A stretch of 42,438 nt of DNA from a virus. The position numbers were made by a program, and so were the translations under genes. Below are positions 10,662 to 31,590 of the stretch, in pieces; position 1 is the first letter of the stretch; each line of letters starts with the position of its first letter. The stretch is taken from positions 1 through 42,438 of IMG/VR virus record IMGVR_UViG_3300006916_000096; one strand, given 5' to 3'. The notes beneath the pieces were generated by a model. The model searched no databases and had not been told where the DNA came from. It worked only from the letters and a program-made list of their open reading frames with translations.

Positions 10662-12758
10662 TTAAGAAAAGAAATAATCTGAGCTAACTACCTCTTCAAC
10701 TTTCAAGGTACCTAGTTCAGGTTGTGTTACAGAGTATCCTCTGAAGTCATCAATCAACATAGATTGAATCGTATCAAAGAAATTATCTACATTATATAAC
10801 ATGGCGAACTGCCACTTAGTATGTTCTATTAGTTTATCTACATCGCATGCATGGGTAGAGAACGAGTCATGCACAGCACCAAAGGTTCCAGGGAATGCTT
10901 TGATTACCATAGCCATATGTGCTGCATCCATTGAGTGCACAAAGTTAGGTGAACATCCAGATGCAAACGATCTACGACAGGGTATTAAGTTACCATCTTT
11001 AGTTACTACAGGTATCTTAACGCTATGACCTATACGACCCAAGGTTCTTATGGTGCTTCTAAACGTCATGTTCTTTTGCTTCCACACTTCGTATAGCACA
11101 GGGAACCCTGAGGGTGTAGTCCATTCCAGGCAAGGCTTACCACTATCTATTATAAAGTTAGTTACCTTTTGCAAGAACTTCATGGTCTTTAGGGGACCTA
11201 CACATGTATCGTTGATAGCAAGTATTAAGTTCTTAGCAAGCAAATCACAGTCCTCTCTAGTGATCTTATACTTCTTATCGTAACCTTCTACTTTACAATC
11301 ATGATACATATTCTCTGCGATCTTACGTTGTCCTGCAGAGTAGGCTCTTGTCATAGACCCACGTTTAGCAATGCCCTTACGTATAGACTTCATTGGCATG
11401 TTACGTTCAGCAAACCATTCAGGCATACGAGCGATCAAACGTTTCGCAACCTGTACATAAAAGTCTTTTTGTATACTCTGAGGAACAAGTGATACTAACT
11501 CACCAGCTTGTTTATCTTTAGACATTGCGGCTAGGTGTTGCCAACCATTGTTACTACCATCAACTGGTATAGGTAGGTGTGAGTAATACTCTCCTGTACT
11601 ATCTCTGTACCCCTTTAGGTCCAAGCAACAAGCCAGTAGTGTTATGGGCTTCTCCGCTTCTACTCTGAACTTCAGGTTCTCTGCGTCCTCTATCAGACTC
11701 TTCATGTTCTGTATTGTCCACTGAGCCCTGTCATCTAAGGTCATCTTGTCTACTGAAATAGTATCTAAGCCTTCCTCTTCTAAGTGAGTCCTGTAGTCTT
11801 CGGTTAACCAGTCTAACGATGCTAACTCTTCTAGTGTATACGATTGATTGTAAGAACACGCAGTGTGTATGCACAACCAGTAGAACCCACGCTCATCTAG
11901 TAACTTACTATCAGAGAACTCAAAGAGTCCCTTAGCCAAGTCAGAACCTTGGAAGTTTAGGAAGGGTTCTGTATAGTAAACCCTGCCACGATAGTCACAC
12001 TCCACCGCTTGGTAGAAAGTCTTATCACCAATAGCTCTAGCTTTGTTTAAGATAAACTTCATCTCGATTCTTTTAGATCTACCCTTGTCAGTCCTGTCCT
12101 CCATATCCAGGAACTTAGATACATTATCTCGTAATGCTTTTACTAGGGTAGTGTTAAGTCTCCAAGGAACTCTCTGTAGTTTATCTAATGCTTTAACAAA
12201 TGGTTCGTTAAGACACTGACTAAAGTCTCTCTCTGAAGTCATACGTTTTATGTATGGCCTTTTAGTTACTGGGTTTCTCAGTCCACGGATAAGAGGGAAC
12301 TTATGGAATGCAGTACCTAGCAGGGTAGCGTTCTCATAAGCTGCAGGTATTTCACCTAGCTCTTCCCACTTCTCTGTAAGGTATAGAACATACGGAGCAC
12401 GAAACCCTTCGTACTCTCTTTCGATCTCTAGGAATCCAAGGATAAGGAAAGCTTCTATAAATAAATCACCTAATGAAAACAGTTCAGTGTAGGTGCTGTT
12501 TCTCAATCCTATCCTCGACACTACTGCGAGACCTATGGCAGACGATGTAGCTGTTAGCTTGAACGGTTTACCGTTAGCTCTACGTGACTTAAGGAACACG
12601 CTCTGTGCAGCCTGCACTGCTGCAATGACTAGCTCCTCGTAGTCAACACCGTAGTCTACATGTCTGTTAAGCAGTTCGATGCCCAAGTGATTTCTCCCTC
12701 GGGCACCTTCTCTGTTACTTCTAATGTACTCTGCTACTTTGTGAATAGCATTAGTCAT
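10662..12758 (-). CDS. T7-type single-subunit DNA-dependent RNA polymerase
   Basis: It transcribes phage genes from phage promoters in the cytoplasm. The catalytic core is intact: motif A DGSNNGWQH with D400 (T7 D537), motif B with K465 and Y473 in AKRGSMTRAYS (T7 K631 and Y639, same 8-residue spacing), and motif C HDS with D631 (T7 D812). At 698 residues it is about 185 shorter than T7 RNA polymerase; the shortening lies mainly before motif A, so the N-terminal promoter-binding and AT-rich recognition part is reduced. It begins directly after the stop of the primase-helicase gene, with GGAG in the preceding gene's tail. The gene is near the end of the replication operon, as in phiKMV-like phages and unlike T7, where it is first. 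Its likely target promoters are listed at 21496-21512 and 29688-29707. Confidence 0.95.
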   Translation of the reverse strand: MTNAIHKVAEYIRSNREGARGRNHLGIELLNRHVDYGVDYEELVIAAVQAAQSVFLKSRRANGKPFKLTATSSAIGLAVVSRIGLRNSTYTELFSLGDLFIEAFLILGFLEIEREYEGFRAPYVLYLTEKWEELGEIPAAYENATLLGTAFHKFPLIRGLRNPVTKRPYIKRMTSERDFSQCLNEPFVKALDKLQRVPWRLNTTLVKALRDNVSKFLDMEDRTDKGRSKRIEMKFILNKARAIGDKTFYQAVECDYRGRVYYTEPFLNFQGSDLAKGLFEFSDSKLLDERGFYWLCIHTACSYNQSYTLEELASLDWLTEDYRTHLEEEGLDTISVDKMTLDDRAQWTIQNMKSLIEDAENLKFRVEAEKPITLLACCLDLKGYRDSTGEYYSHLPIPVDGSNNGWQHLAAMSKDKQAGELVSLVPQSIQKDFYVQVAKRLIARMPEWFAERNMPMKSIRKGIAKRGSMTRAYSAGQRKIAENMYHDCKVEGYDKKYKITREDCDLLAKNLILAINDTCVGPLKTMKFLQKVTNFIIDSGKPCLEWTTPSGFPVLYEVWKQKNMTFRSTIRTLGRIGHSVKIPVVTKDGNLIPCRRSFASGCSPNFVHSMDAAHMAMVIKAFPGTFGAVHDSFSTHACDVDKLIEHTKWQFAMLYNVDNFFDTIQSMLIDDFRGYSVTQPELGTLKVEEVVSSDYFFS

Positions 12759-21039: not shown

Positions 21040-21474
21040 TTAACCACCTGAAAGTCTATTAATCTCTGCCTGTAGTTCCTCATCAGTGAGGTCTGTATAG
21101 TCAAAGTTAGTGTTTACATTTTCAGATCGTTGTAGTTTAGGTTGTTCATACTCAGCTACTATTGAAGCAAGTCTTGCAGCTTCAACCATATCGTCAGTAG
21201 ATATAGCTTTAATCATAGCGAGTTTCATAACAGTCAGACCTTTAGGTATACTTTCCATAAGACTGTCTGATAAATTGTTGACGAGAGCAAGAACATCTTT
21301 CATTTCTTCTTTCATCTTTTCATTCTTAATCCTAGCTTCAGTAGCTTTCTCTGTCATCATCGCCATATGTTCTTTATCATGACGTGGTTTTAGATTAGCT
21401 AATGAGTTAGGGTGTATCTTTTTCTTTCCTTTTGTTACATCATCTTGCGTATAAATTTTTTGGGCTTCTGACAT
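21040..21474 (-). CDS. Possible terminase small subunit, 144 aa
   Basis: The protein has a basic KGKKKIHPNSLANLKP start, a long charged helical middle that looks like a coiled coil, and a C-terminus with DLTDEELQAEINRLSGG. Proteins with this arrangement are sometimes labelled terminase small subunits in phages, where they bind pac DNA and guide the large subunit. No small subunit is found next to the large subunit gene, so this is a candidate by elimination only. I use the ATG at 21474, 6 nt after GGAG, rather than the one at 21480. The gene has its own promoter and hairpin control element upstream and its own terminator downstream, so it is expressed as a single-gene unit. Confidence 0.5.
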   Translation of the reverse strand: MSEAQKIYTQDDVTKGKKKIHPNSLANLKPRHDKEHMAMMTEKATEARIKNEKMKEEMKDVLALVNNLSDSLMESIPKGLTVMKLAMIKAISTDDMVEAARLASIVAEYEQPKLQRSENVNTNFDYTDLTDEELQAEINRLSGG

Positions 21475-21480
21475 TATCAT

Positions 21481-21534
21481 CTCCGTTTCTAGGTAGTTCC
21501 CTATAAGGTACCTAATTACCTAGAATCTACGGAG
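21481..21534 (-). promoter_or_regulatory. RBS-sequestering hairpin
   Basis: On the minus strand CTCCGT (21534-21529) pairs with ACGGAG (21486-21481), and TTCTAGGTA (21525-21517) pairs with TACCTAGAA (21495-21487): 15 bp with one 3-nt bulge and a 21-nt loop. The 3' arm contains the GGAG ribosome binding site of the gene starting at 21474. RNA that contains both arms should hide the site. Confidence 0.75.
21496..21512 (-). promoter_or_regulatory. T7-like phage promoter inside the hairpin loop
   Basis: GGTACCTTATAGGGAAC resembles the -11 to +6 part of T7-type promoters (CTATAGGGA). The first 12 bases are identical to those of the plus-strand candidate at 29688. By T7 analogy transcription would start at 21501, so the transcript would lack the 5' arm of the hairpin. 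Confidence 0.6.
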
Positions 21535-21556: not shown

Positions 21557-21605
21557 CAAAGAATAATCAAGGCCCTAGCTACCCCTTAGTGAGATAGCTA
21601 GAGCC
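21557..21605 (-). terminator. Rho-independent terminator
   Basis: On the minus strand an 11-bp stem (GGCTCTAGCTA / TAGCTAGGGCC, one G-T pair) is followed by TTGATTATTCTTTG. It ends the unit containing the ssDNA-binding protein and the 23-residue peptide and lies just before the hairpin and promoter element. Confidence 0.75.
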
Positions 21606-21618
21606 CCTTAGGATGGAT

Positions 21619-21690
21619 TTACTGGCGTTTATCTAGGTAATCTAGAACCATTAGTCCAATAAACCCTACTGAAATAAGAATAACAAACAT
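21619..21690 (-). CDS. Membrane micro-protein, 23 aa
   Basis: MFVILISVGFIGLMVLDYLD plus KRQ is almost wholly one membrane helix with a basic end. AAGG lies 6 nt before the ATG. It stands alone between the ssDNA-binding gene and a terminator, so the RNA seems organised around it. It is too short for statistical support; conservation in relatives would decide. Confidence 0.45.
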   Translation of the reverse strand: MFVILISVGFIGLMVLDYLDKRQ

Positions 21691-21750: not shown

Positions 21751-21778
21751 ATTATACCTTAGAACTCAGAGTCGTCAG
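21751..21778 (-). promoter_or_regulatory. Possible host sigma-70 promoter
   Basis: A perfect -10 box TATAAT (21756-21751) lies 16 bp after CTGACG (21778-21773), a 4/6 match to TTGACA. It overlaps the end of the ssDNA-binding gene and would transcribe the 23-residue peptide. Confidence 0.3.
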
Positions 21779-22226
21779 CCTCTGTTCCTTCCACATCAAA
21801 GTCAACAGACCCAGTGTACTCAATTAGGTTTGTGATTTGAATTGCAGTCAAGATTGTGGAGACACCTTGACGACCAGCTACATCATACTCTCGTCGATAT
21901 ACTTTTACATTACCAACTGAGCCGTTACCAATCTTAATGGTAGCAGGTATAGCTTTCTTTTGACTGTCAACAATAGCAACAGGATCGTTTGCAGATCCAT
22001 CTTTGCGTACAGCTTTACGCTTCAAGTTAACAGCGACTCTACTTGGGTCATCTTTGACGGGCTTAACTGTGCCGTACTGAGCGAGTTCTTCTGAACGATC
22101 AGAAGGTACAACGATCTGACATTCCCATTGCAGAGTACCGAAAGGTTCTGTAGGGTTGTCAGGGTCTACCTTAACATAGTTAAGAGTCACATCACGGATG
22201 ATTGAAGTACCAAGATTTGCAGTCAT
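21759..22226 (-). CDS. gp2.5-like single-stranded DNA-binding protein
   Basis: The 155-residue protein is rich in beta strand and has the tell-tale acidic tail ending in phenylalanine (FDVEGTEADDSEF), as in T7 gp2.5, where the tail contacts polymerase and helicase. The body fits an OB-fold protein, with basic and aromatic residues (KVYRREYDVAGRQG) for DNA contact. It would coat lagging-strand DNA and recruit the replication proteins encoded downstream. AGGA lies 8 nt before the ATG. A second gene with a similar pattern is at 28629-29126. The assignment rests on tail, size and context rather than on clear sequence identity. Confidence 0.65.
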   Translation of the reverse strand: MTANLGTSIIRDVTLNYVKVDPDNPTEPFGTLQWECQIVVPSDRSEELAQYGTVKPVKDDPSRVAVNLKRKAVRKDGSANDPVAIVDSQKKAIPATIKIGNGSVGNVKVYRREYDVAGRQGVSTILTAIQITNLIEYTGSVDFDVEGTEADDSEF

Positions 22227-22243: not shown

Positions 22244-22624
22244 TTAAATAAGTTCTTTGAGTTGTACACTATGTTTAGTCCAGTCTCCAGACTCAACAAT
22301 AGGTTGTGATTTGTAGCGATGACCTTGTAATGTATAGATCAAAGCTGTTCCATAATCAGTAGACACTTCCTCCCTGTCATAAAAGTTAGTGGCTTCATTG
22401 CCACTGTAACCTTCAAGTGTGTCTAGTTTTCGTAGTGTATCTTCACTCACCTCATAAACTTCTACAAGGATATGTGAGTCTCCACTACGGATGCCTGGGT
22501 AGCTACCAAGAGAGAACATCTCGTAGTCTGGTATCCATTGTGTCCCAATCATTTTAGATTCACCAAGGACTCGATGATTACCGAGCCCCTTTCTAAGTGA
22601 ACCATATACAGCTACGTTACGCAT
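22244..22624 (-). CDS. GGCT/AIG2-like gamma-glutamyl cyclotransferase
   Basis: The family cleaves gamma-glutamyl amides, releasing 5-oxoproline. The 126-residue protein has the signature YGSLRKG (Y7-G8-S9-L10) that binds the substrate carboxylate, SYPGI at 41-45, and LDTLEGY with E71 at the place of the catalytic glutamate of human GGCT. I use the ATG at 22624, directly after AGGAGGAACT, because upstream ATGs overlap the ATP-grasp gene and lack the motif context. It is the last gene of the amidoligase cassette. It may undo or trim gamma-glutamyl-type amides formed by the ligases. Confidence 0.82.
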   Translation of the reverse strand: MRNVAVYGSLRKGLGNHRVLGESKMIGTQWIPDYEMFSLGSYPGIRSGDSHILVEVYEVSEDTLRKLDTLEGYSGNEATNFYDREEVSTDYGTALIYTLQGHRYKSQPIVESGDWTKHSVQLKELI

Positions 22625-22632
22625 AGTTCCTC

Positions 22633-23790
22633 CTAAGTATACACGTGGCATGGAGCAATAGTAATTGGTAAGCACCACTGCTCTTCTTCGCTATCATTAT
22701 AACACAAGACTAGCTCACCGTCATCACCTACGACTTCGTAGACAAAGAAGTAACCAGACCTACCATGATAGTCATCTTCCATCCAACGTTCGAGTGCATC
22801 TGACTTGCCACCGTTGTTCATAAATCTTCTTAGGCAAGTGTATAGATTATCTGTAAGGTATACTGTTTCACCTTCTTCAATATAATAATCATCAACATCG
22901 TATGGAACATTCAATGCTTCATCTAACTCCGTTAAAGATTGCAAGGCAAGTTGATCTGAAGTTAATACTTCATCATACCTTGGTATCTTTTTATTATCTA
23001 TTAGAGCCTGAAGGGCTCCGGAGTATCTAGCTAACGTTGTGTTACCATTCAGTCCACATGCAGTGTTCACCTCTAATACAGTTGCTTCCTTCTTTCTTTC
23101 ATTCCATATCACATCTACCGCACCGAAGTCTAACCCTAATACATTTACTGCATTAACTGCACTAGATATTACTGAAGGTGATGGCTTAACATCTGAGATT
23201 GTAAATACAAATCCGTTACTGTGGTTTCTGATTTGATAGTTCTCAGGTGTTGTACCATGTGGTACTGCCTTACGTTGTATAAGTATAGGTACATTCTTTA
23301 CTACATGCACACGATACTCGTCACGCTTCTTCATGTATTTAGTATACAAAGGTGCATTGTATACAGCACTGCTTGCAGATACATCTTCCTTGTATCTTAC
23401 AAGATCTAGCCCTTCACCTGAATGACCTTGCATTACATTACGAATAACAACATCATGCCCTTCATCGTACCACTGTCTAGCAATGCTTACATGTGTTGTC
23501 CAGTCAGGTATAGGTATCGGTAGTATTGAATCAGCATTATCTCTGTCGATAGTCTTGAAGAACTCTAGCTTATGAGATGCTAATCGAATCTTATGGGGTT
23601 TGTTAAATACTCTAGCTTGTCTAAATGAAGACAGATCTATAGTTGAGTTACCCCAGTTGATTAAAACTAAATCGTTTTTATCTGTAACAGATGAGCCTTC
23701 AAGTTTCATTCTCTTACAGTTTAAAGAATTAGCTAACAGTTTTGCAGATTCACTTCCAGATTTATAAGGTACTACTAATACTTGGCTCAT
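22633..23790 (-). CDS. ATP-grasp carboxylate-amine ligase
   Basis: ATP-grasp enzymes activate a carboxylate as an acyl phosphate and join it to an amine. The 385-residue protein has a glycine-rich loop QGHSGEGL at 121-128, DEYRVHVV at 157-164, DFGAVDVIW at 221-229 and the magnesium-binding ExN pair (E240, N242) in EVNTACGLNGN. The last 100 residues form an additional acidic domain (YDVDDYYIEEGETVYL) of unknown role. Its ATG overlaps the stop of the amidotransferase gene (ATGA), a sign of coupled synthesis, and its TAG stop lies just before the GGCT gene. Substrate is unknown: peptide, amino acid or a phage or host surface component are all possible. Confidence 0.82.
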   Translation of the reverse strand: MSQVLVVPYKSGSESAKLLANSLNCKRMKLEGSSVTDKNDLVLINWGNSTIDLSSFRQARVFNKPHKIRLASHKLEFFKTIDRDNADSILPIPIPDWTTHVSIARQWYDEGHDVVIRNVMQGHSGEGLDLVRYKEDVSASSAVYNAPLYTKYMKKRDEYRVHVVKNVPILIQRKAVPHGTTPENYQIRNHSNGFVFTISDVKPSPSVISSAVNAVNVLGLDFGAVDVIWNERKKEATVLEVNTACGLNGNTTLARYSGALQALIDNKKIPRYDEVLTSDQLALQSLTELDEALNVPYDVDDYYIEEGETVYLTDNLYTCLRRFMNNGGKSDALERWMEDDYHGRSGYFFVYEVVGDDGELVLCYNDSEEEQWCLPITIAPCHVYT

Positions 23791-24941
23791 TGTATTGTCT
23801 CCATACAGAAGTCATCGTCTGTTAAAAGATAAACATCTTTTTGTGATTGAAGTATCTCTTCTACTTCATCCTTCTTATCTAAGTTGTTTACATCCTCAGC
23901 TATTATTTCTTGCAACCAAGGTGTAGTTAAGATAAGTTCGTAAGTGCTTCCAGTCTTTACCATACTCTGAACTATACCTGTGTAGTACCCAGCTACTGCA
24001 GGTACAGGAGCTTGGAAGCATTTGATCTCCAAGTTCTGACCATCGGTAGTGATACCACCCATCGGCGTGGTTTGTTTGGAACCTGTCGGTATGCCTTCAG
24101 AATAAAATTCTACTTCATCACCAGTCTTTAAACCATAGTCCTTTAGTTTATTTAACGGATGACCTGGTGTCTTTTTTACATCGTTAGACCATTTGTTTTG
24201 ATTCCAATTGTTGTAGTACACAGTCGTAGGTTTAACATACTTAGGTTGTATCTTTACCTTTCTGAAAGATGGTTTAAGACCTGTAGTATCTTCAACGTTA
24301 AAGGTAGCAAGCATACCTACAGGTAACTCTTCAATGGTATAGTCTATATCATTACGAGTTAGGATAGCTTCAAGCATATACCTTTCTGATGCATAATAAA
24401 ATGTATCTCTGGTCTTATGCTTAGCAATCCACATAGGTCTCTCTTGATTACGAACAATATAAAACTCCATCTTATTATCGTTGTACCAAGTCAGAGCAAA
24501 CGCACCTTTCAATACACTAATAACTTCTTCAGGGTTATCAGTCAGACCCATAGCATATGCAATGTTCTCACTGTCTACCTTAAAGTCTTTGTAATCTGGA
24601 AGTGTAGTCTGATCACCAAGTGTACCGTTGTGAGCTAGCGTTACATTACCGTAAGTAAACGGGTGAGCATTGATGTCATTCACTGCACCCTGAGTAGCAT
24701 ATCTGTTGTGACCTAGGAGAAAGTCACCGTATATATTACCAGCAATAGCAGAACCCTGCTTAAGTTGTAGGTAATCTGGAGCACTAACAGCACGTTTGTA
24801 TGTTAAAACCTCGTTGTTTGCATCGTTGGTTGCTACACCTGTACTATGAGAACCACGAAGAGTATCTACAAATAGTAATTGTTGAAACACTTTTGCATCT
24901 TGGAAGTTGATATCGCCTATCACGCCAACTAATCCGCACAT
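23787..24941 (-). CDS. Class II glutamine amidotransferase (Ntn hydrolase)
   Basis: It releases ammonia from glutamine for amide formation. The catalytic Cys is C2 (MCGLVGVIGD), exposed after removal of Met1. The other family marks are present: RGSHSTG at 29-35, GHNRYATQG at 77-85, AHPF at 92-95 and HNG at 104-106, where the Asn and Gly form the oxyanion hole. The glutaminase domain covers about the first 220 residues; the remaining 160 have a basic linker and a small beta domain and show no synthase domain such as those of GlmS or PurF. The acceptor enzyme is therefore probably a separate ligase in this cassette. It overlaps the amidoligase gene upstream by 13 nt and the ATP-grasp gene by 4 nt. 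Confidence 0.88.
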   Translation of the reverse strand: MCGLVGVIGDINFQDAKVFQQLLFVDTLRGSHSTGVATNDANNEVLTYKRAVSAPDYLQLKQGSAIAGNIYGDFLLGHNRYATQGAVNDINAHPFTYGNVTLAHNGTLGDQTTLPDYKDFKVDSENIAYAMGLTDNPEEVISVLKGAFALTWYNDNKMEFYIVRNQERPMWIAKHKTRDTFYYASERYMLEAILTRNDIDYTIEELPVGMLATFNVEDTTGLKPSFRKVKIQPKYVKPTTVYYNNWNQNKWSNDVKKTPGHPLNKLKDYGLKTGDEVEFYSEGIPTGSKQTTPMGGITTDGQNLEIKCFQAPVPAVAGYYTGIVQSMVKTGSTYELILTTPWLQEIIAEDVNNLDKKDEVEEILQSQKDVYLLTDDDFCMETIQ

Positions 24942-25834
24942 AATTTATCCTTTATCTTTGACAATTGTCTTGAGCCTATATTGTGATGCATGATGTTGGT
25001 TTGTACCTCTCTCATGCGTGATTGAAATAGAAGTTCTTCTGCTACCCACACACCCTCGAACAGTTTCATATTAGACAGTGACACATGTTCTTGGTTATCG
25101 TTTACAAGATCACCGAATACATACGTTAGCATAGCATTCGCACCGCTTACGCTAAGTATCTTAGGGATTCTGCTTATAGATTTGTTAGGATTTTGAACAA
25201 ACTTCTTGAGTGCTAGTATATGATTAATCCAATTGGTTAGCACATAGCAATTGGAGGTGCCCCGATGGCCTCTGAACTCGATAGCCCCACGTTCCCTAAG
25301 GGAAAGTAAGTTTATCGCAGAGTACTTAGTCCATGATGGTTCCTGCAAAGAGTCAGGACCAGCTTCAAATATACGTAGTAGGTTTTGTATTTGATTCTGC
25401 CCACGATATAAAGACAGAGAGTATATACTTTCTTCTCTCTCTTGTCCACATATACTGAACAGATACGGTTCTACCATAGCATACAAAGTTACAAGGTCAC
25501 ACACAGAAGACCATAGCATATCTCTAGCATCCATGTGTACATGCACAGACGTACGGTAACCAAACGTACCTTGATTAGTCAAAGCTAATGCTAGCTTCTC
25601 TACTCTTTTCTGTGCACCAGATCCACCTATAGGTCCATCGAATACATACTCTACTCCGTTGTTACGAAGGGATCCATCGGGTATGCATCGCCATCCAGGT
25701 ATTCTTGGAGGGTCCATAAGGTTTTCTACTTCTACCTCAACGCCTATCCTGGTGCCTGATATCAGGTTACCAAGACGGTTTGTCTCTGGTTCTTGAGGTC
25801 TAAGATTGTATCGAGATTGAATTGTGGAATCCAT
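24929..25834 (-). CDS. Putative amidoligase of the glutamine-synthetase-like fold
   Basis: The 301-residue protein matches the pattern of the putative amidoligase family (Pfam PF12224 as I recall): GVEVEVE with E33, E35 and E37; DGSLRNNGVEYVF at 53-65 with E62; GYRTSVHVHMD with H98 and H100; and a later GAIEFRGHRG segment. In glutamine-synthetase-like ligases such Glu and His residues bind the metals and ATP, and the Arg binds phosphate. I choose the ATG at 25834 over a TTG at 25843 because GAGGA would be too close to the TTG. It overlaps the unknown gene upstream by 35 nt and the amidotransferase downstream by 13 nt. It probably forms an amide or peptide-like bond on an unknown substrate. 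Confidence 0.78.
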   Translation of the reverse strand: MDSTIQSRYNLRPQEPETNRLGNLISGTRIGVEVEVENLMDPPRIPGWRCIPDGSLRNNGVEYVFDGPIGGSGAQKRVEKLALALTNQGTFGYRTSVHVHMDARDMLWSSVCDLVTLYAMVEPYLFSICGQEREESIYSLSLYRGQNQIQNLLRIFEAGPDSLQEPSWTKYSAINLLSLRERGAIEFRGHRGTSNCYVLTNWINHILALKKFVQNPNKSISRIPKILSVSGANAMLTYVFGDLVNDNQEHVSLSNMKLFEGVWVAEELLFQSRMREVQTNIMHHNIGSRQLSKIKDKLCAD

Positions 25835-26486
25835 TTGGGACAATCCTCATTATCATTGGAATCAAGTGATCAACTTTGCAGGAGACTTCTATCCTGCCAT
25901 CTTTAATCACACCTATTGGTCTACCCTTGTACGACAGCACAGGGTGTTCGACATCATACATAGAAGAGAATGCAAAGTGTGGAGAGATAGCTCGTGAAAT
26001 CATTTCACCACTCACCACGGTTTCAAAGGCTTCTTCAAATGGACTGTAGGTTGGATTGAATAACTCTGATATCTCATTGTTACCTATATCTAACCTGTAA
26101 TTAATGTTGTCGTTTACTACGAGATGCCTGATAATTCTTTTATCAAGAATCTTATGCTCAACATTACTCCATCTAAAACCTTTCTTCCATTGTCTTCTAG
26201 CTACACGTTCTACATACATAGTATGTTTGTTACTATTAATGAAACCTAGTTTAGGCCAGTCAAAGTTAATATCATTACTTGGATCGTCACTGTATAGTAA
26301 CACACGATCACCGTTAACTTTATCTACACTAATAGCTAGAGCACCATCATCAGTTTCTATATTGGATACTCTACCAACATACCAGCCATCATCATCCCTG
26401 CTTTTAAACTGTAGGTATGTATCTGCGTAAGTTGCATAGAAGTCTCTTGGACTTATGTCCGACAGTATTAGTTCACCGTTTCTCAT
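25800..26486 (-). CDS. Unknown protein of the amidoligase cassette, 228 aa
   Basis: No family is recognised. The first half is beta-rich and acidic (YLQFKSRDDDGWYVGRV), resembling a small SH3-like or tudor-like barrel in strand pattern only; the second half is mixed. There are no cysteine pairs, no signal peptide and no membrane segment. Its ATG overlaps the stop of the ligase-type-2 gene (ATGA), and its 3' end overlaps the next ligase gene. Such wedging between two ligases suggests that it is a partner, a scaffold or a substrate of the pathway. That is inference from context. Confidence 0.7.
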   Translation of the reverse strand: MRNGELILSDISPRDFYATYADTYLQFKSRDDDGWYVGRVSNIETDDGALAISVDKVNGDRVLLYSDDPSNDINFDWPKLGFINSNKHTMYVERVARRQWKKGFRWSNVEHKILDKRIIRHLVVNDNINYRLDIGNNEISELFNPTYSPFEEAFETVVSGEMISRAISPHFAFSSMYDVEHPVLSYKGRPIGVIKDGRIEVSCKVDHLIPMIMRIVPNGFHNSISIQS

Positions 26487-27274
26487 GTCATCTCCAAATT
26501 CAACTCCTGCATTATAGCTTTAGCATCATCAGTTTTACTACGATTAATAATCTTACTGATAGTTTTACCATCAGCAACTTCAAGCATCTGAGGTAGCATG
26601 TGTAGGTTTTGAGTAGCCCACATGGTTTTATCATACACCCATGACATTAACTCATTAGAGTTTAGCCAGAAGTTACTAAGGGTTCTGTACTCTACACCGT
26701 ATTGCTTGTGGCGCATTGAGCCAGCCTTACCATAAAGCTTCCGTCTTAGTTTGTCGGTGTCAATTAAAAGAGATGGCAACCCAATAACGAAGTCCATCAT
26801 CTTTACAAGGTCCTCATTGGTACCAATACTTGGGTTGTCATAGCCTACATGTATGTGCCCACCAGCAGTCCTAAGGGTATTACCTTCAGACTTTGGGGGT
26901 GGTACTGCCTTACCAGACCAAGCGTTTATATCGGGACTACAGCCAAACTCAAGGGCGTTAGGTCCATACTCTCTGAGTTGCTCTTGGGTGTAGGTGTAGC
27001 TTGGTATAATAATAGGCTGTAAGTTGTTACCTTCTAAGATGTTTCGTAGGTCAGCCATCACTGAGTCCATGTTGTGTATGAACTCCATCTTGGATTTAGC
27101 AGGATTGATATTAAACTCTGCAAGAACATTGTCCTCCTGTACACCACCGTCTTTGACAGGACGAGGACAAACTTTATTGCCACCGACATAACCGATAGCA
27201 GATGTAACAGAGCCAGTGGAATCCGCAACGAATACCTCAGGGTCTGCACCGATAGTTACATTTTCTAGACGCAT
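26483..27274 (-). CDS. phiEco32-like COOH-NH2 ligase type 2
   Basis: The 263-residue protein begins with IGADPEVFV (D11, E13), a hallmark of the phage phiEco32-like carboxylate-amine ligase type 2 family of the glutamine-synthetase fold. Further likely active-site marks are AEFNINP with E53 and N55, AGGHIHVGYD with H140 and H142, and a later VEYRTLSNFW with an Arg for phosphate binding. GAGG lies 7 nt before the ATG. It is a different type from the ligase at 24929-25834, so the cassette has two glutamine-synthetase-like ligases plus an ATP-grasp enzyme. The substrate is unknown; published proposals for the family are peptide or cell-envelope modification. Confidence 0.82.
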   Translation of the reverse strand: MRLENVTIGADPEVFVADSTGSVTSAIGYVGGNKVCPRPVKDGGVQEDNVLAEFNINPAKSKMEFIHNMDSVMADLRNILEGNNLQPIIIPSYTYTQEQLREYGPNALEFGCSPDINAWSGKAVPPPKSEGNTLRTAGGHIHVGYDNPSIGTNEDLVKMMDFVIGLPSLLIDTDKLRRKLYGKAGSMRHKQYGVEYRTLSNFWLNSNELMSWVYDKTMWATQNLHMLPQMLEVADGKTISKIINRSKTDDAKAIMQELNLEMT

Positions 27275-29215: not shown

Positions 29216-29401
29216 TTACACACGATTACGGAGTCGACGACGCAACTCACGATCACACATTTTAGTAGCACCATACTTAGGCTTAGAGGCTACAAGGTAA
29301 CCTATAACTAGAACGAAAGCATATACTACAACAACCATCATTGACCCTATCACAAAGGACAAGGCAAGAAGACCCCAAGGGTCATTAAGAATGTGTTCCA
29401 T
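29216..29401 (-). CDS. Small membrane protein with basic tail, 61 aa
   Basis: Residues about 10-38 (LLALSFVIGSMMVVVVYAFV and on) form one long or two short membrane helices, followed by a basic tail CDRELRRRLRNRV. GGAGGTATCGTC directly precedes the ATG. It is the first gene of the minus module after the control region, so it should be made earliest. Size and charge would suit a holin-like or superinfection-exclusion peptide; no family is recognised. No clear holin or endolysin gene is otherwise visible. Confidence 0.65.
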   Translation of the reverse strand: MEHILNDPWGLLALSFVIGSMMVVVVYAFVLVIGYLVASKPKYGATKMCDRELRRRLRNRV

Positions 29402-29687
29402 GACGATACCTCCACAGTATCTTAGAGGCTCCCTAAGGAGCTTTATTAGTTGTGTGTACCTGCAGTATTCTGAGGTACTCTATTGAGTTCTAAAGGGTCT
29501 TTAGGGGCTACCCTGAGGTACCCCTGGGGTCTCCCTACGCTAGCGAGAAACTAGGGGAACTCTAGGGCTACCCGATAGAACCTCAAAGGAGACCGAAGGG
29601 CTCCCAAGGGACTCTCAGGGGGTAGGAAATAACTACAGGGTACCAGATATCACGGGTTTTACTGTATGCTCCCTAAAGACCCATTTC

Positions 29688-29707
29688 GGTACCTTATAGA
29701 GAGAGAG
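29688..29707 (+). promoter_or_regulatory. T7-like phage promoter ahead of terminase
   Basis: GGTACCTTATAGAGAGAGAG shares its first 12 bases with the minus-strand element at 21512-21501 and resembles the T7 core CTATAGGGAGA. The expected start is G29699, 254 bp before the terminase gene. It would serve the late plus-strand module. Confidence 0.6.
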
Positions 29708-29769
29708 TATACGTAGGAAAACTACAACCACATATATCTATTGCTTAGGGTACGGAGGGGGCCCTAAGA

Positions 29770-29790
29770 TCTTATGGTCCCTATAGGCCC
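29770..29790 (-). promoter_or_regulatory. Possible T7-like promoter for the leftward module
   Basis: On the minus strand GGGCCTATAGGGACC contains the T7-like core CCTATAGGGA, with an expected start near 29781. The upstream half differs from the other two candidates, so support is weaker. Confidence 0.35.
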
Positions 29791-29952
29791 ATATGAAAAA
29801 TATAGATATCTGTGTAGAGGCTAGACCCCTCCCCTTAAGGATCTTTGGGGGCATCCTCGACACGGCAAGAACCCTTAGAGAAAGAAACCTTAGGATAATA
29901 TTCCTATGGTACCTCTCTCTCTGGTAACCCTAAAGGTCTGGGAGGACTACCC

Positions 29953-31590
29953 ATGGATAACAAGAGAAGACTAGCTTTAGCTAAAGAAGCCCAAAGGCGT
30001 AGGAAGCTAGCAGAATACGAAAAGAACTTTGAACTCTTTTCAAAAGAACAGATTAAGATATTGACTAAAGATTCTTCTAAAGGCTTTGTACCTTTTGAGT
30101 TTAACGATGCCCAGAAGATAGTCAATGAGAAGATTGATAAGCAGCTTCAGGAAACAGGCCGTGTCAGGGCCATCATCCTTAAAGGTCGTCAGATGGGCTT
30201 GTCAACCTTCACGACTGCCAGAGTATTCTGGAAGTCATACTTCAATGCTTATAACAAATCAGTTGTCATGGCTCATGACTCAGCCACTTCTGATGCCCTC
30301 TTTAATATGTCACGGAATACTATTTCCAACATGCCTGAAGAGTTTAGGCCAAGCTTTAAGAAATCTAATGCCAAAGAAATTATGTTCGAGCACAATGACT
30401 CGGGCTATAGACTATACACGGCAGGATCCCCTGAAGCTGGTCGAGGTACAACTCCAACCATTGCACACCTCTCTGAGGTTGCTTTCTGGACCCATGATGA
30501 GAAGATCCTTGCAGGTCTTTTCCAGGGTATCTCAGAAGCCGATGGTACTGAAGTTATACTTGAGTCAACCGCAAATGGTGTGGGTAACGAATTCCATAGA
30601 TTATGGAAAGGTGCTTGTGAAGGTGAGAATGATTACCTTCCTATATTCGTACCCTGGTACTTAATGACGGAATACAGAAGAACTGTCCTTGACCCCGAAG
30701 CTTTCCAAGAGACTCTTACAGATGAAGAAAAGCAGATACAAGAAATACATGGTCTTGATCTGGAACAACTTTACTGGAGGAGACTAAAGGTCGCTGAGGG
30801 TGGGCTAAGTAAATTCCGACAAGAATACCCATTAACTCCAGAAGAAGCGTTTCAAGTTTCTGGTGCTAATGTGTTTAACCTTGAGAAGCTACAGTCCCTT
30901 CTTCCTTCTACTATAATGAAGAAACAAAACTTTAACTTAGAATCATCTACCTTTATAGATCATGATCAAGGTAGCTTAGAGATATACCAGTATCCTAAGT
31001 TTGATGAGAACTTTGTTATTGGTGCTGACTGTGCCCTTGGGGTAGGTCAAGACTCATCTGCTTGTGCAGTTATGAACACAAACAATGAAGTCGTGGCCCT
31101 GTACAGAAATAACAGAATTGATCCTACACAGTATGGAGATCTTTTGTTTTATCTGGGGAGATACTACAACAACGCCCTATTGGCTGTTGAATCTAATTCC
31201 TTAGGTATAGCTACATTGAATCGTCTTAAACAGATGAGCTATGTTAATCTATACCATCAAACTAAAGTAGCTAATGTGTCTAATGAGGAAGGCACTCGTC
31301 TGGGTTGGAGAACAACTCAAGCTACTAAGCCAATGATTATTGGTCATCTTAAGAATGCGATTGAAAATGACGATATCAATCTTGCGTCCCCACGAATCAT
31401 CCAGGAATGTATGGATTACGTGGCTGATGACAATGGTCGTACCAATGCTATTGCGGGTGCTCATGACGACACCGTAATCGCTACAGCTATAGCCTTAGAA
31501 GTCCTAAGAACTCACAGAGACCGTTTGTCTCGGAATAGAGTTGGATTTCAGAATCAGCAGTTTACGGAGGATACTACTGACTGGTTATAG
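29953..31590 (+). CDS. Terminase large subunit
   Basis: It is the motor that packages DNA into the prohead and cuts it. The 545-residue protein has a Walker A-like KGRQMGLST at 77-85, a Walker B-like IAHLSEVAFW at 170-179 with E175, and the coupling motif ESTANG at 204-209. The C-terminal RNase H-like nuclease shows VIGADCALG, LAVESNSLG and AGAHDDTV, each with the expected acidic residue. GGAGG lies 7 nt before the ATG. It is the first gene of the late plus-strand module, and the portal gene follows 140 bp later. The small subunit is not adjacent; a candidate is at 21040-21474. Confidence 0.95.
   Translation: MDNKRRLALAKEAQRRRKLAEYEKNFELFSKEQIKILTKDSSKGFVPFEFNDAQKIVNEKIDKQLQETGRVRAIILKGRQMGLSTFTTARVFWKSYFNAYNKSVVMAHDSATSDALFNMSRNTISNMPEEFRPSFKKSNAKEIMFEHNDSGYRLYTAGSPEAGRGTTPTIAHLSEVAFWTHDEKILAGLFQGISEADGTEVILESTANGVGNEFHRLWKGACEGENDYLPIFVPWYLMTEYRRTVLDPEAFQETLTDEEKQIQEIHGLDLEQLYWRRLKVAEGGLSKFRQEYPLTPEEAFQVSGANVFNLEKLQSLLPSTIMKKQNFNLESSTFIDHDQGSLEIYQYPKFDENFVIGADCALGVGQDSSACAVMNTNNEVVALYRNNRIDPTQYGDLLFYLGRYYNNALLAVESNSLGIATLNRLKQMSYVNLYHQTKVANVSNEEGTRLGWRTTQATKPMIIGHLKNAIENDDINLASPRIIQECMDYVADDNGRTNAIAGAHDDTVIATAIALEVLRTHRDRLSRNRVGFQNQQFTEDTTDWL

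Follow-up and report, generated by a model that had tools for sequence, protein, structure and literature searches.

A phage RNA polymerase promoter nested in a hairpin predicted to hide the ribosome site of a late-type gene in a marine phage

Introduction

Excerpts of PMC3014915 and PMC2988022, including review text on bacteriophage T4, describe late genes carried on RNAs that also bear early and middle genes. For T4 e, soc, 49 and I-TevI, they report that a longer early RNA hides the Shine–Dalgarno sequence and/or the AUG and that transcription from a late promoter within the element leaves out its 5′ part. For Bacillus subtilis sigG, excerpted text (PMC5942855) proposes that read-through RNA from the upstream operon is blocked by a large hairpin, which cannot form in RNA from sigG's own promoter.

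The locus described here belongs to a marine phage whose genome encodes a T7-type RNA polymerase. It lies in a window of 42,438 nucleotides, the whole stretch of DNA that was analysed (IMG/VR record IMGVR_UViG_3300006916_000096); a search for circularity found no end repeat, and the window is a fragment. In T7-type phages, early and late timing is usually attributed to promoter class and genome entry. A first-pass annotation had proposed, for one small gene of this phage (here gene X), a switch of the T4 e kind, in which a phage promoter sits inside a hairpin that hides the ribosome site. We compared this element with its counterparts in related phages and with the known systems.

Results

A hairpin encloses a promoter and the ribosome site of gene X

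The minus strand at 21481-21534 reads CTCCGT-AGA-TTCTAGGTA / TACCTAGAA-ACGGAG and forms a 15-bp stem with one bulge; the first-pass description of such a stem, with GGAG in its 3′ arm, is borne out by both sequence and computed fold. The features of the locus and its surroundings are as follows.

10662..12758, minus strand: gene for the phage RNA polymerase; the nested promoter lies upstream of it (phrog_414, E 8.7e-110)
21040..21474, minus strand: gene X, small helical protein, possibly a terminase small subunit (putative)
21481..21486, minus strand: lower 3′ arm ACGGAG, containing the Shine–Dalgarno GGAG at 21481-21484
21487..21495, minus strand: upper 3′ arm TACCTAGAA, with invariant CCTAGA at 21488-21493 (+9 to +14)
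21496..21518, minus strand: predicted promoter for the phage single-subunit RNA polymerase, -17 to +6, start at 21501
21517..21525, minus strand: upper 5′ arm TTCTAGGTA, with TCTAGG at 21519-21524 (-23 to -18) invariant in 37 of 37 close loci
21529..21534, minus strand: lower 5′ arm CTCCGT, upstream of +1 and, from sequence and fold, predicted to be missing from phage-polymerase RNA
21569..21607, minus strand: intrinsic terminator, a 17-pair stem followed by a T-rich tail
21759..22226, minus strand: gene for an ssDNA-binding protein; the terminator and hairpin lie downstream of it (phrog_112, E 6.8e-09)
29682..29704, plus strand: second copy of the predicted phage promoter, before terminase, without flanking arms
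29953..31590, plus strand: terminase large subunit, first late-strand gene (phrog_2, E 5.3e-31)

In the lower stem, CTCCGT (21534-21529) pairs with ACGGAG (21486-21481) over 6 bp; in the upper stem, TTCTAGGTA (21525-21517) pairs with TACCTAGAA (21495-21487) over 9 bp; and AGA forms a 3-nt bulge between the two on the hairpin's 5′ side. GGAG (21484-21481) closes the 3′ arm, and the loop contains GGTACCTTATAGGGAAC (21512-21496). An Rfam search of the region returned nothing at the gathering score, a repeat finder did not report the bulged stem, and no similarity was found between the DNA of this region and that of named phages. The open-reading-frame tool placed gene X at 21040-21480 (146 aa), with an ATG at 21480 that abuts GGAG. 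The likely start is the ATG at 21474, 6 nt from GGAG, as originally annotated, since its spacing is normal, unlike that of the ATG at 21480.

The nested promoter has a twin ahead of terminase

The -17 to +6 stretch around 21501, TAATTAGGTACCTTATAGGGAAC, resembles a T7-type promoter, as judged against the T7 consensus, which the T7 phi13 sequence that we folded displays. Its core GGTACCTTATAG occurs at just one further site in the window, 29688-29699 on the plus strand before terminase, exactly the 12-base identity noted in the first-pass annotation; the +1 of this second site (29699) lies 254 nt ahead of terminase. A loosened pattern (up to 3 mismatches) matched the window at 15 sites against 12.7 expected, which is not an enrichment, and exact matches numbered only two, so that the case for the promoter depends on position and on relatives.

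Relatives supply that case. Close relatives carry [AG]GTACCTTATAGAGAGAG about 260-340 nt ahead of terminase, and GTACCTTATAGRG was found in 13 of 18 records searched, with two or three sites wherever a record contains both regions: one before gene X and one or two in tandem before terminase. It was not found in the other five (two of clade H, two distant relatives and Roseobacter phage CRP-7), and a reversed control pattern had no match in the 18 records. Base -11 is identical at the two promoters in all 14 sequences that have both (G in 3, A in 11), an agreement to which common ancestry contributes. A motif thus recurs before transcription units in a genome that encodes a T7-type polymerase, which is how promoters of this class are recognized. 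The shared core, the two or three sites per genome and the matching -11 base strongly back the phage promoter originally placed in the loop, and we have little doubt, on this comparative evidence, that the predicted promoter at 21501 is real.

The divergent noncoding region around the terminase promoter spans some 550 bp (29401-29953) and contains a CCTATAGG palindrome near 29780.

Gene X resembles a late gene on the early strand

The strand of gene X differs between close and distant relatives. All 37 loci of the close clade have it on the early-gene strand, and in each of the 12 scored against terminase/portal it lies opposite to them. Among 55 distant loci, X is opposite to the early genes in 50 of the 52 that could be scored (the exceptions being L075 and L252), and it shares the terminase/portal strand in all 17 scorable cases. 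Of the cultured relatives found, Roseobacter phage CRP-7 is the nearest (34% for RNA polymerase and 56% for terminase); it differs from the window in that its X homologue gp61 (E 1e-3) is on the late strand directly after terminase and one gene ahead of portal, and in that the promoter motif is absent. Gene X therefore looks like a late gene by its position in relatives, and this late-strand place gives a reason for keeping X off early.

What the protein does is less clear from similarity. Gene X had no Pfam or PHROG match at E<=0.001, and a PDB sequence-profile search gave no match (best E 0.33). Its structure model (pLDDT 74, pTM 0.31) matched no fold in the PDB or among viral models at E<=0.001. 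No terminase small subunit family matched at E<=0.001, with one member each at E 0.04-0.09; that X is a terminase small subunit is a guess from synteny.

A motif around CYCCTWAAAG immediately precedes X in 40 of the 42 distant loci (for example in L078, L083, L092, L098, L101, L109, L115 and L116), and in L109 it also precedes terminase; it is a candidate for the promoter used by a related group of polymerases.

A terminator precedes the hairpin

The window's intrinsic terminator, judged strong, is separated from the hairpin downstream by about 35 nt. Counterparts with a 14-19 bp stem and a T-rich tail, differing in sequence, are present in all nine close clades sampled. Because the terminator lies just upstream, the hairpin, if it acts, would work on leak-through as a second gate, and little read-through may be left for it. 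Sigma-70-like sites upstream numbered 28, against 22.4 in shuffles (s.d. 4.5), and no host read-through promoter was located there. Sequence and comparison thus show four things: two copies of the promoter, an inverted repeat, a terminator and, in relatives, a late-strand position for X.

Two other features of this stretch of the minus strand were observed. A hydrophobic 23-aa micro-ORF (21619-21690) sits between the ssDNA-binding protein gene and the terminator; counterparts of 22-30 aa occur in most clades, several ending near DKR. Further upstream, 22244-27274 encodes a cluster of gamma-glutamyl cyclotransferase, S6 glutaminyl transferase-like, glutamine amidotransferase and amidoligase/COOH-NH2 ligase proteins.

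Read-through RNA is predicted to conceal the ribosome site

For a 121-nt read-through RNA the computed folding energy is -29.6 kcal/mol (z -2.47), a value equalled by 2 of 200 dinucleotide shuffles, and computed folding of RNA beginning at +1 yields no fold of this kind. Opening GGAG is predicted to cost 8.2 kcal/mol in the read-through RNA and 1.2 in the phage RNA, so that the comparison with and without the 5′ arm, suggested in the first-pass annotation, gives a hidden and a free site, respectively. When the upstream part was shuffled, 1 of 60 copies attained 8.2 kcal/mol, and dinucleotide shuffles of the far flank attained the window's cost in 0 of 100. The GGAG opening cost of X ranks first among the 36 window genes scored; for opening from Shine–Dalgarno to AUG, X ranks fifth and is not its genome's highest. 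These calculations indicate that the ribosome site is probably concealed in the window phage's read-through RNA.

Relatives conserve the inverted repeat and vary the cover

Relatives were collected through their RNA polymerase, gene X, ssDNA-binding and terminase proteins and labelled by clade: W, L037 (window) and L040; A, L005 and L006; B, L043 and L045; C, L017, L019, L047 and L050; D, L020 and L021; E, L028; F, L057; G, L010, L061, L062, L068 and L069; H, L072 and L073. Every one of the 37 close loci retrieved through their proteins (gene X 71-100% identical) has the arrangement TCTAGG-N17-(+1)-N8-CCTAGA. The bases beside the invariant hexamers vary, as does the terminator stem, and the terminase promoter lacks both TCTAGG and CCTAGA. 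Seventeen distinct versions of the element were gathered by the TCTAGG...CCTAGA pattern; the alignment (A3) contains 13 of these, the other four being identical to included rows over its 41 columns.

Compensatory stem changes in relatives, which the first-pass annotation had named as a test, were not seen in the core. The six core pairs never vary, and this lack of covariation speaks neither for nor against the stem; another four pairs are canonical in some of the sequences, and changes on both sides of these are no more frequent than in shuffles. The lower 5′ arm is found in the window subclade (clade A has a CTCTG version), and a change in this arm in L040 still pairs, as G-U. The lower stem that covers GGAG is strong only in the window (8.2 versus 1.2 kcal/mol, as above) and in L040 (7.0 versus 1.8), and for all other versions the cost of opening the Shine–Dalgarno is near control. 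By comparison of the aligned elements, the GGAG cover belongs to the window subclade, and the inverted repeat is what close relatives conserve.

In clade G, the flank is predicted to pair with the AUG instead, raising the Shine–Dalgarno-to-AUG cost to 7.3-11.1 kcal/mol versus 1.2-1.6, with at most 2 of 100 flank shuffles equally high. For clades B, C, E and F, and for one of the two D versions, the minimum-energy structure likewise has an outer helix reaching the AUG, but partition-function costs in these clades are mostly not unusual. Within its own contig, the Shine–Dalgarno-to-AUG cost of X ranks 1 of 16 in the window's sibling and 1 of 20 and 2 of 12 in clade G; it ranks 5 of 26 in E, 6 of 19 in B, 10 of 23 in A, 16 of 22 in C, 13 of 19 in D, 11 of 19 in F and 10 of 19 in H. 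Across nine clades, duplexes between flank and start region were better than with shuffled flanks (Fisher p 0.010; clade H, p 0.84). When flanks were permuted between clades, p was 0.08 for the duplexes, and the median p for opening cost was 0.06 from Shine–Dalgarno to AUG and 0.58 for the Shine–Dalgarno alone. A hairpin over the Shine–Dalgarno or AUG, as in the T4 switches, is thus predicted in the window and L040 and, at the AUG, in clade G. As a model, the hairpin switch is well predicted for two groups, the window and clade G, and is unproven in the other clades.

L075, a deeper relative (X 52% identical), retains TTCTAGG and CCTAGAA with three more bases between them; its promoter match is weaker, and no hiding is predicted (3.0 versus 3.3 kcal/mol). 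The last 98 bases of L075 are exactly the start of G020 (L259), and the other end of L075 resembles the far end of G020, where two GTACCTTATAG sites lie ahead of terminase; the two are probably adjoining parts of one phage type.

Alternative explanations of the hairpin

RNA processing is the main rival to the switch, because T7 offers promoter-spanning hairpins of its own, at phi6.5 and phi13, which we take to be the RNase III sites R6.5 and R13 (the T7 record fetched annotates only the promoters there). When T7 read-through RNAs were folded, a 10-bp stem enclosed the whole of phi6.5 in its loop, and at phi13 the promoter was spanned by a stem of 15 bp. By analogy, the element could be an RNase III-type processing site overlapping the phage promoter, where a cut in the stem frees the ribosome site and gives read-through RNA 5′ ends near those of phage RNA. 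The persistence of the hairpin where no start region is hidden fits such a role. RNase III needs a duplex of at least about 11 bp, however, and most relatives have just 6-10 contiguous core pairs; plain duplex recognition would not call for invariant TCTAGG and CCTAGA letters; and the two T7 hairpins leave the Shine–Dalgarno outside, whereas the window hairpin includes it. We consider this explanation unlikely, if the best of the alternatives.

Somewhat less probable is a DNA operator, with TCTAGG and CCTAGA as inverted half-sites for a protein, perhaps X, that would repress the enclosed promoter or mark a packaging site near a terS-like gene. The constancy of both hexamers in 37 of 37 close loci amid variable neighbours and a variable terminator stem, their centre-to-centre distance of 31 bp and their lack at the terminase promoter would all suit protein binding, and excerpts of PMC2988022 describe I-TevI autorepression at an overlapping late promoter. 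The three extra bases between the arms of L075 argue against fixed half-sites, X has no recognised DNA-binding domain (E<=0.001) and matched nothing in the PDB in either sequence or fold searches, and the lower stem is left unexplained.

Least probable is that the promoter alone matters and the GGAG-covering lower stem is a chance extension: the restriction of the strong lower stem to one subclade and the weak swap tests would allow it, but at most 1 of 60 shuffles attains the window's cost, X ranks first of 36 genes, the L040 change keeps its pairing as G-U, and the invariant arms of 37 loci would have no explanation.

Discussion

Our preferred reading starts from gene X as a late-type gene that this clade carries on its early strand, downstream of a terminator, with an inverted repeat at its start enclosing a promoter for the phage's T7-type polymerase. 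RNA made by the host polymerase and leaking past the terminator would contain both arms and fold, and the predicted hiding of GGAG would leave little X. Once the phage polymerase is present, RNA starting at 21501 would lack the 5′ arms and expose GGAG behind a 27-nt leader, and X would then be made alongside the terminase operon, which is preceded by the same promoter. Host read-through, early silence and late switch-on are what we infer from this layout. Of the switch as originally proposed, the promoter, the folding in the window and the late-strand place of the gene in relatives are supported; the invariant core shows no covariation, and a strong GGAG cover is confined to the window and L040. 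Whether the nested promoter and GGAG-hiding hairpin form a working early/late switch for X is, in our estimation, evenly balanced.

A broader and more tentative reading is that, in a T7-type phage lineage, the invariant promoter hairpin gates a late gene moved onto the early strand and that clades have separately evolved outer helices that hide the start region, a convergent translational timer driven by a single-subunit polymerase. The helices would target the Shine–Dalgarno in the window; in clade G, and less strongly in B, C and E, their target would be the AUG. We regard this as possible but doubtful.

The early/late switch, if true, would mean that T4-style hiding of a late gene on early RNA arose separately in T7-type phages, and it would offer a simple rule by which a phage could bring a late gene under an early operon. 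With two promoters in the genome and so compact an element, the switch lends itself to easy testing with reporters. The literature surveyed, largely outside subscription journals, did not describe a ribosome site being hidden at the promoter of a single-subunit polymerase.

Among known systems, T7 phi6.5 and phi13 share with the window a T7-type promoter nested in a read-through hairpin. The T7 hairpins barely alter the opening of the ribosome site (3.7 versus 3.6 and 1.8 versus 0.5 kcal/mol), and none of the 13 T7 promoters with a scorable gene raises Shine–Dalgarno opening by more than 2.3 kcal/mol; since promoter-spanning hairpins can leave the ribosome site open, a nested promoter by itself is no proof of a switch. 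The sigG arrangement concerns a bacterial sigma-factor gene, with an unrelated polymerase and sequence. As far as the excerpted accounts describe them, the T4 switches of e, soc, 49 and I-TevI are alike in having a late-type gene on early-strand RNA, a covering hairpin and an inner promoter, and in the window both 5′ arms likewise lie upstream of the predicted +1, so that transcripts from it would omit them. The inner promoters of T4 are read by the host enzyme redirected by phage factors, whereas that of the window would be read by a single-subunit phage polymerase. The window further differs in its preceding terminator, in a cover that is predicted from sequence and in the variation of that cover between clades. 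The window thus combines, in prediction, the nested promoter of T7 with the covered ribosome site of T4, and we file it as an element that would work like the T4 switches: a new variant rather than a demonstrated member.
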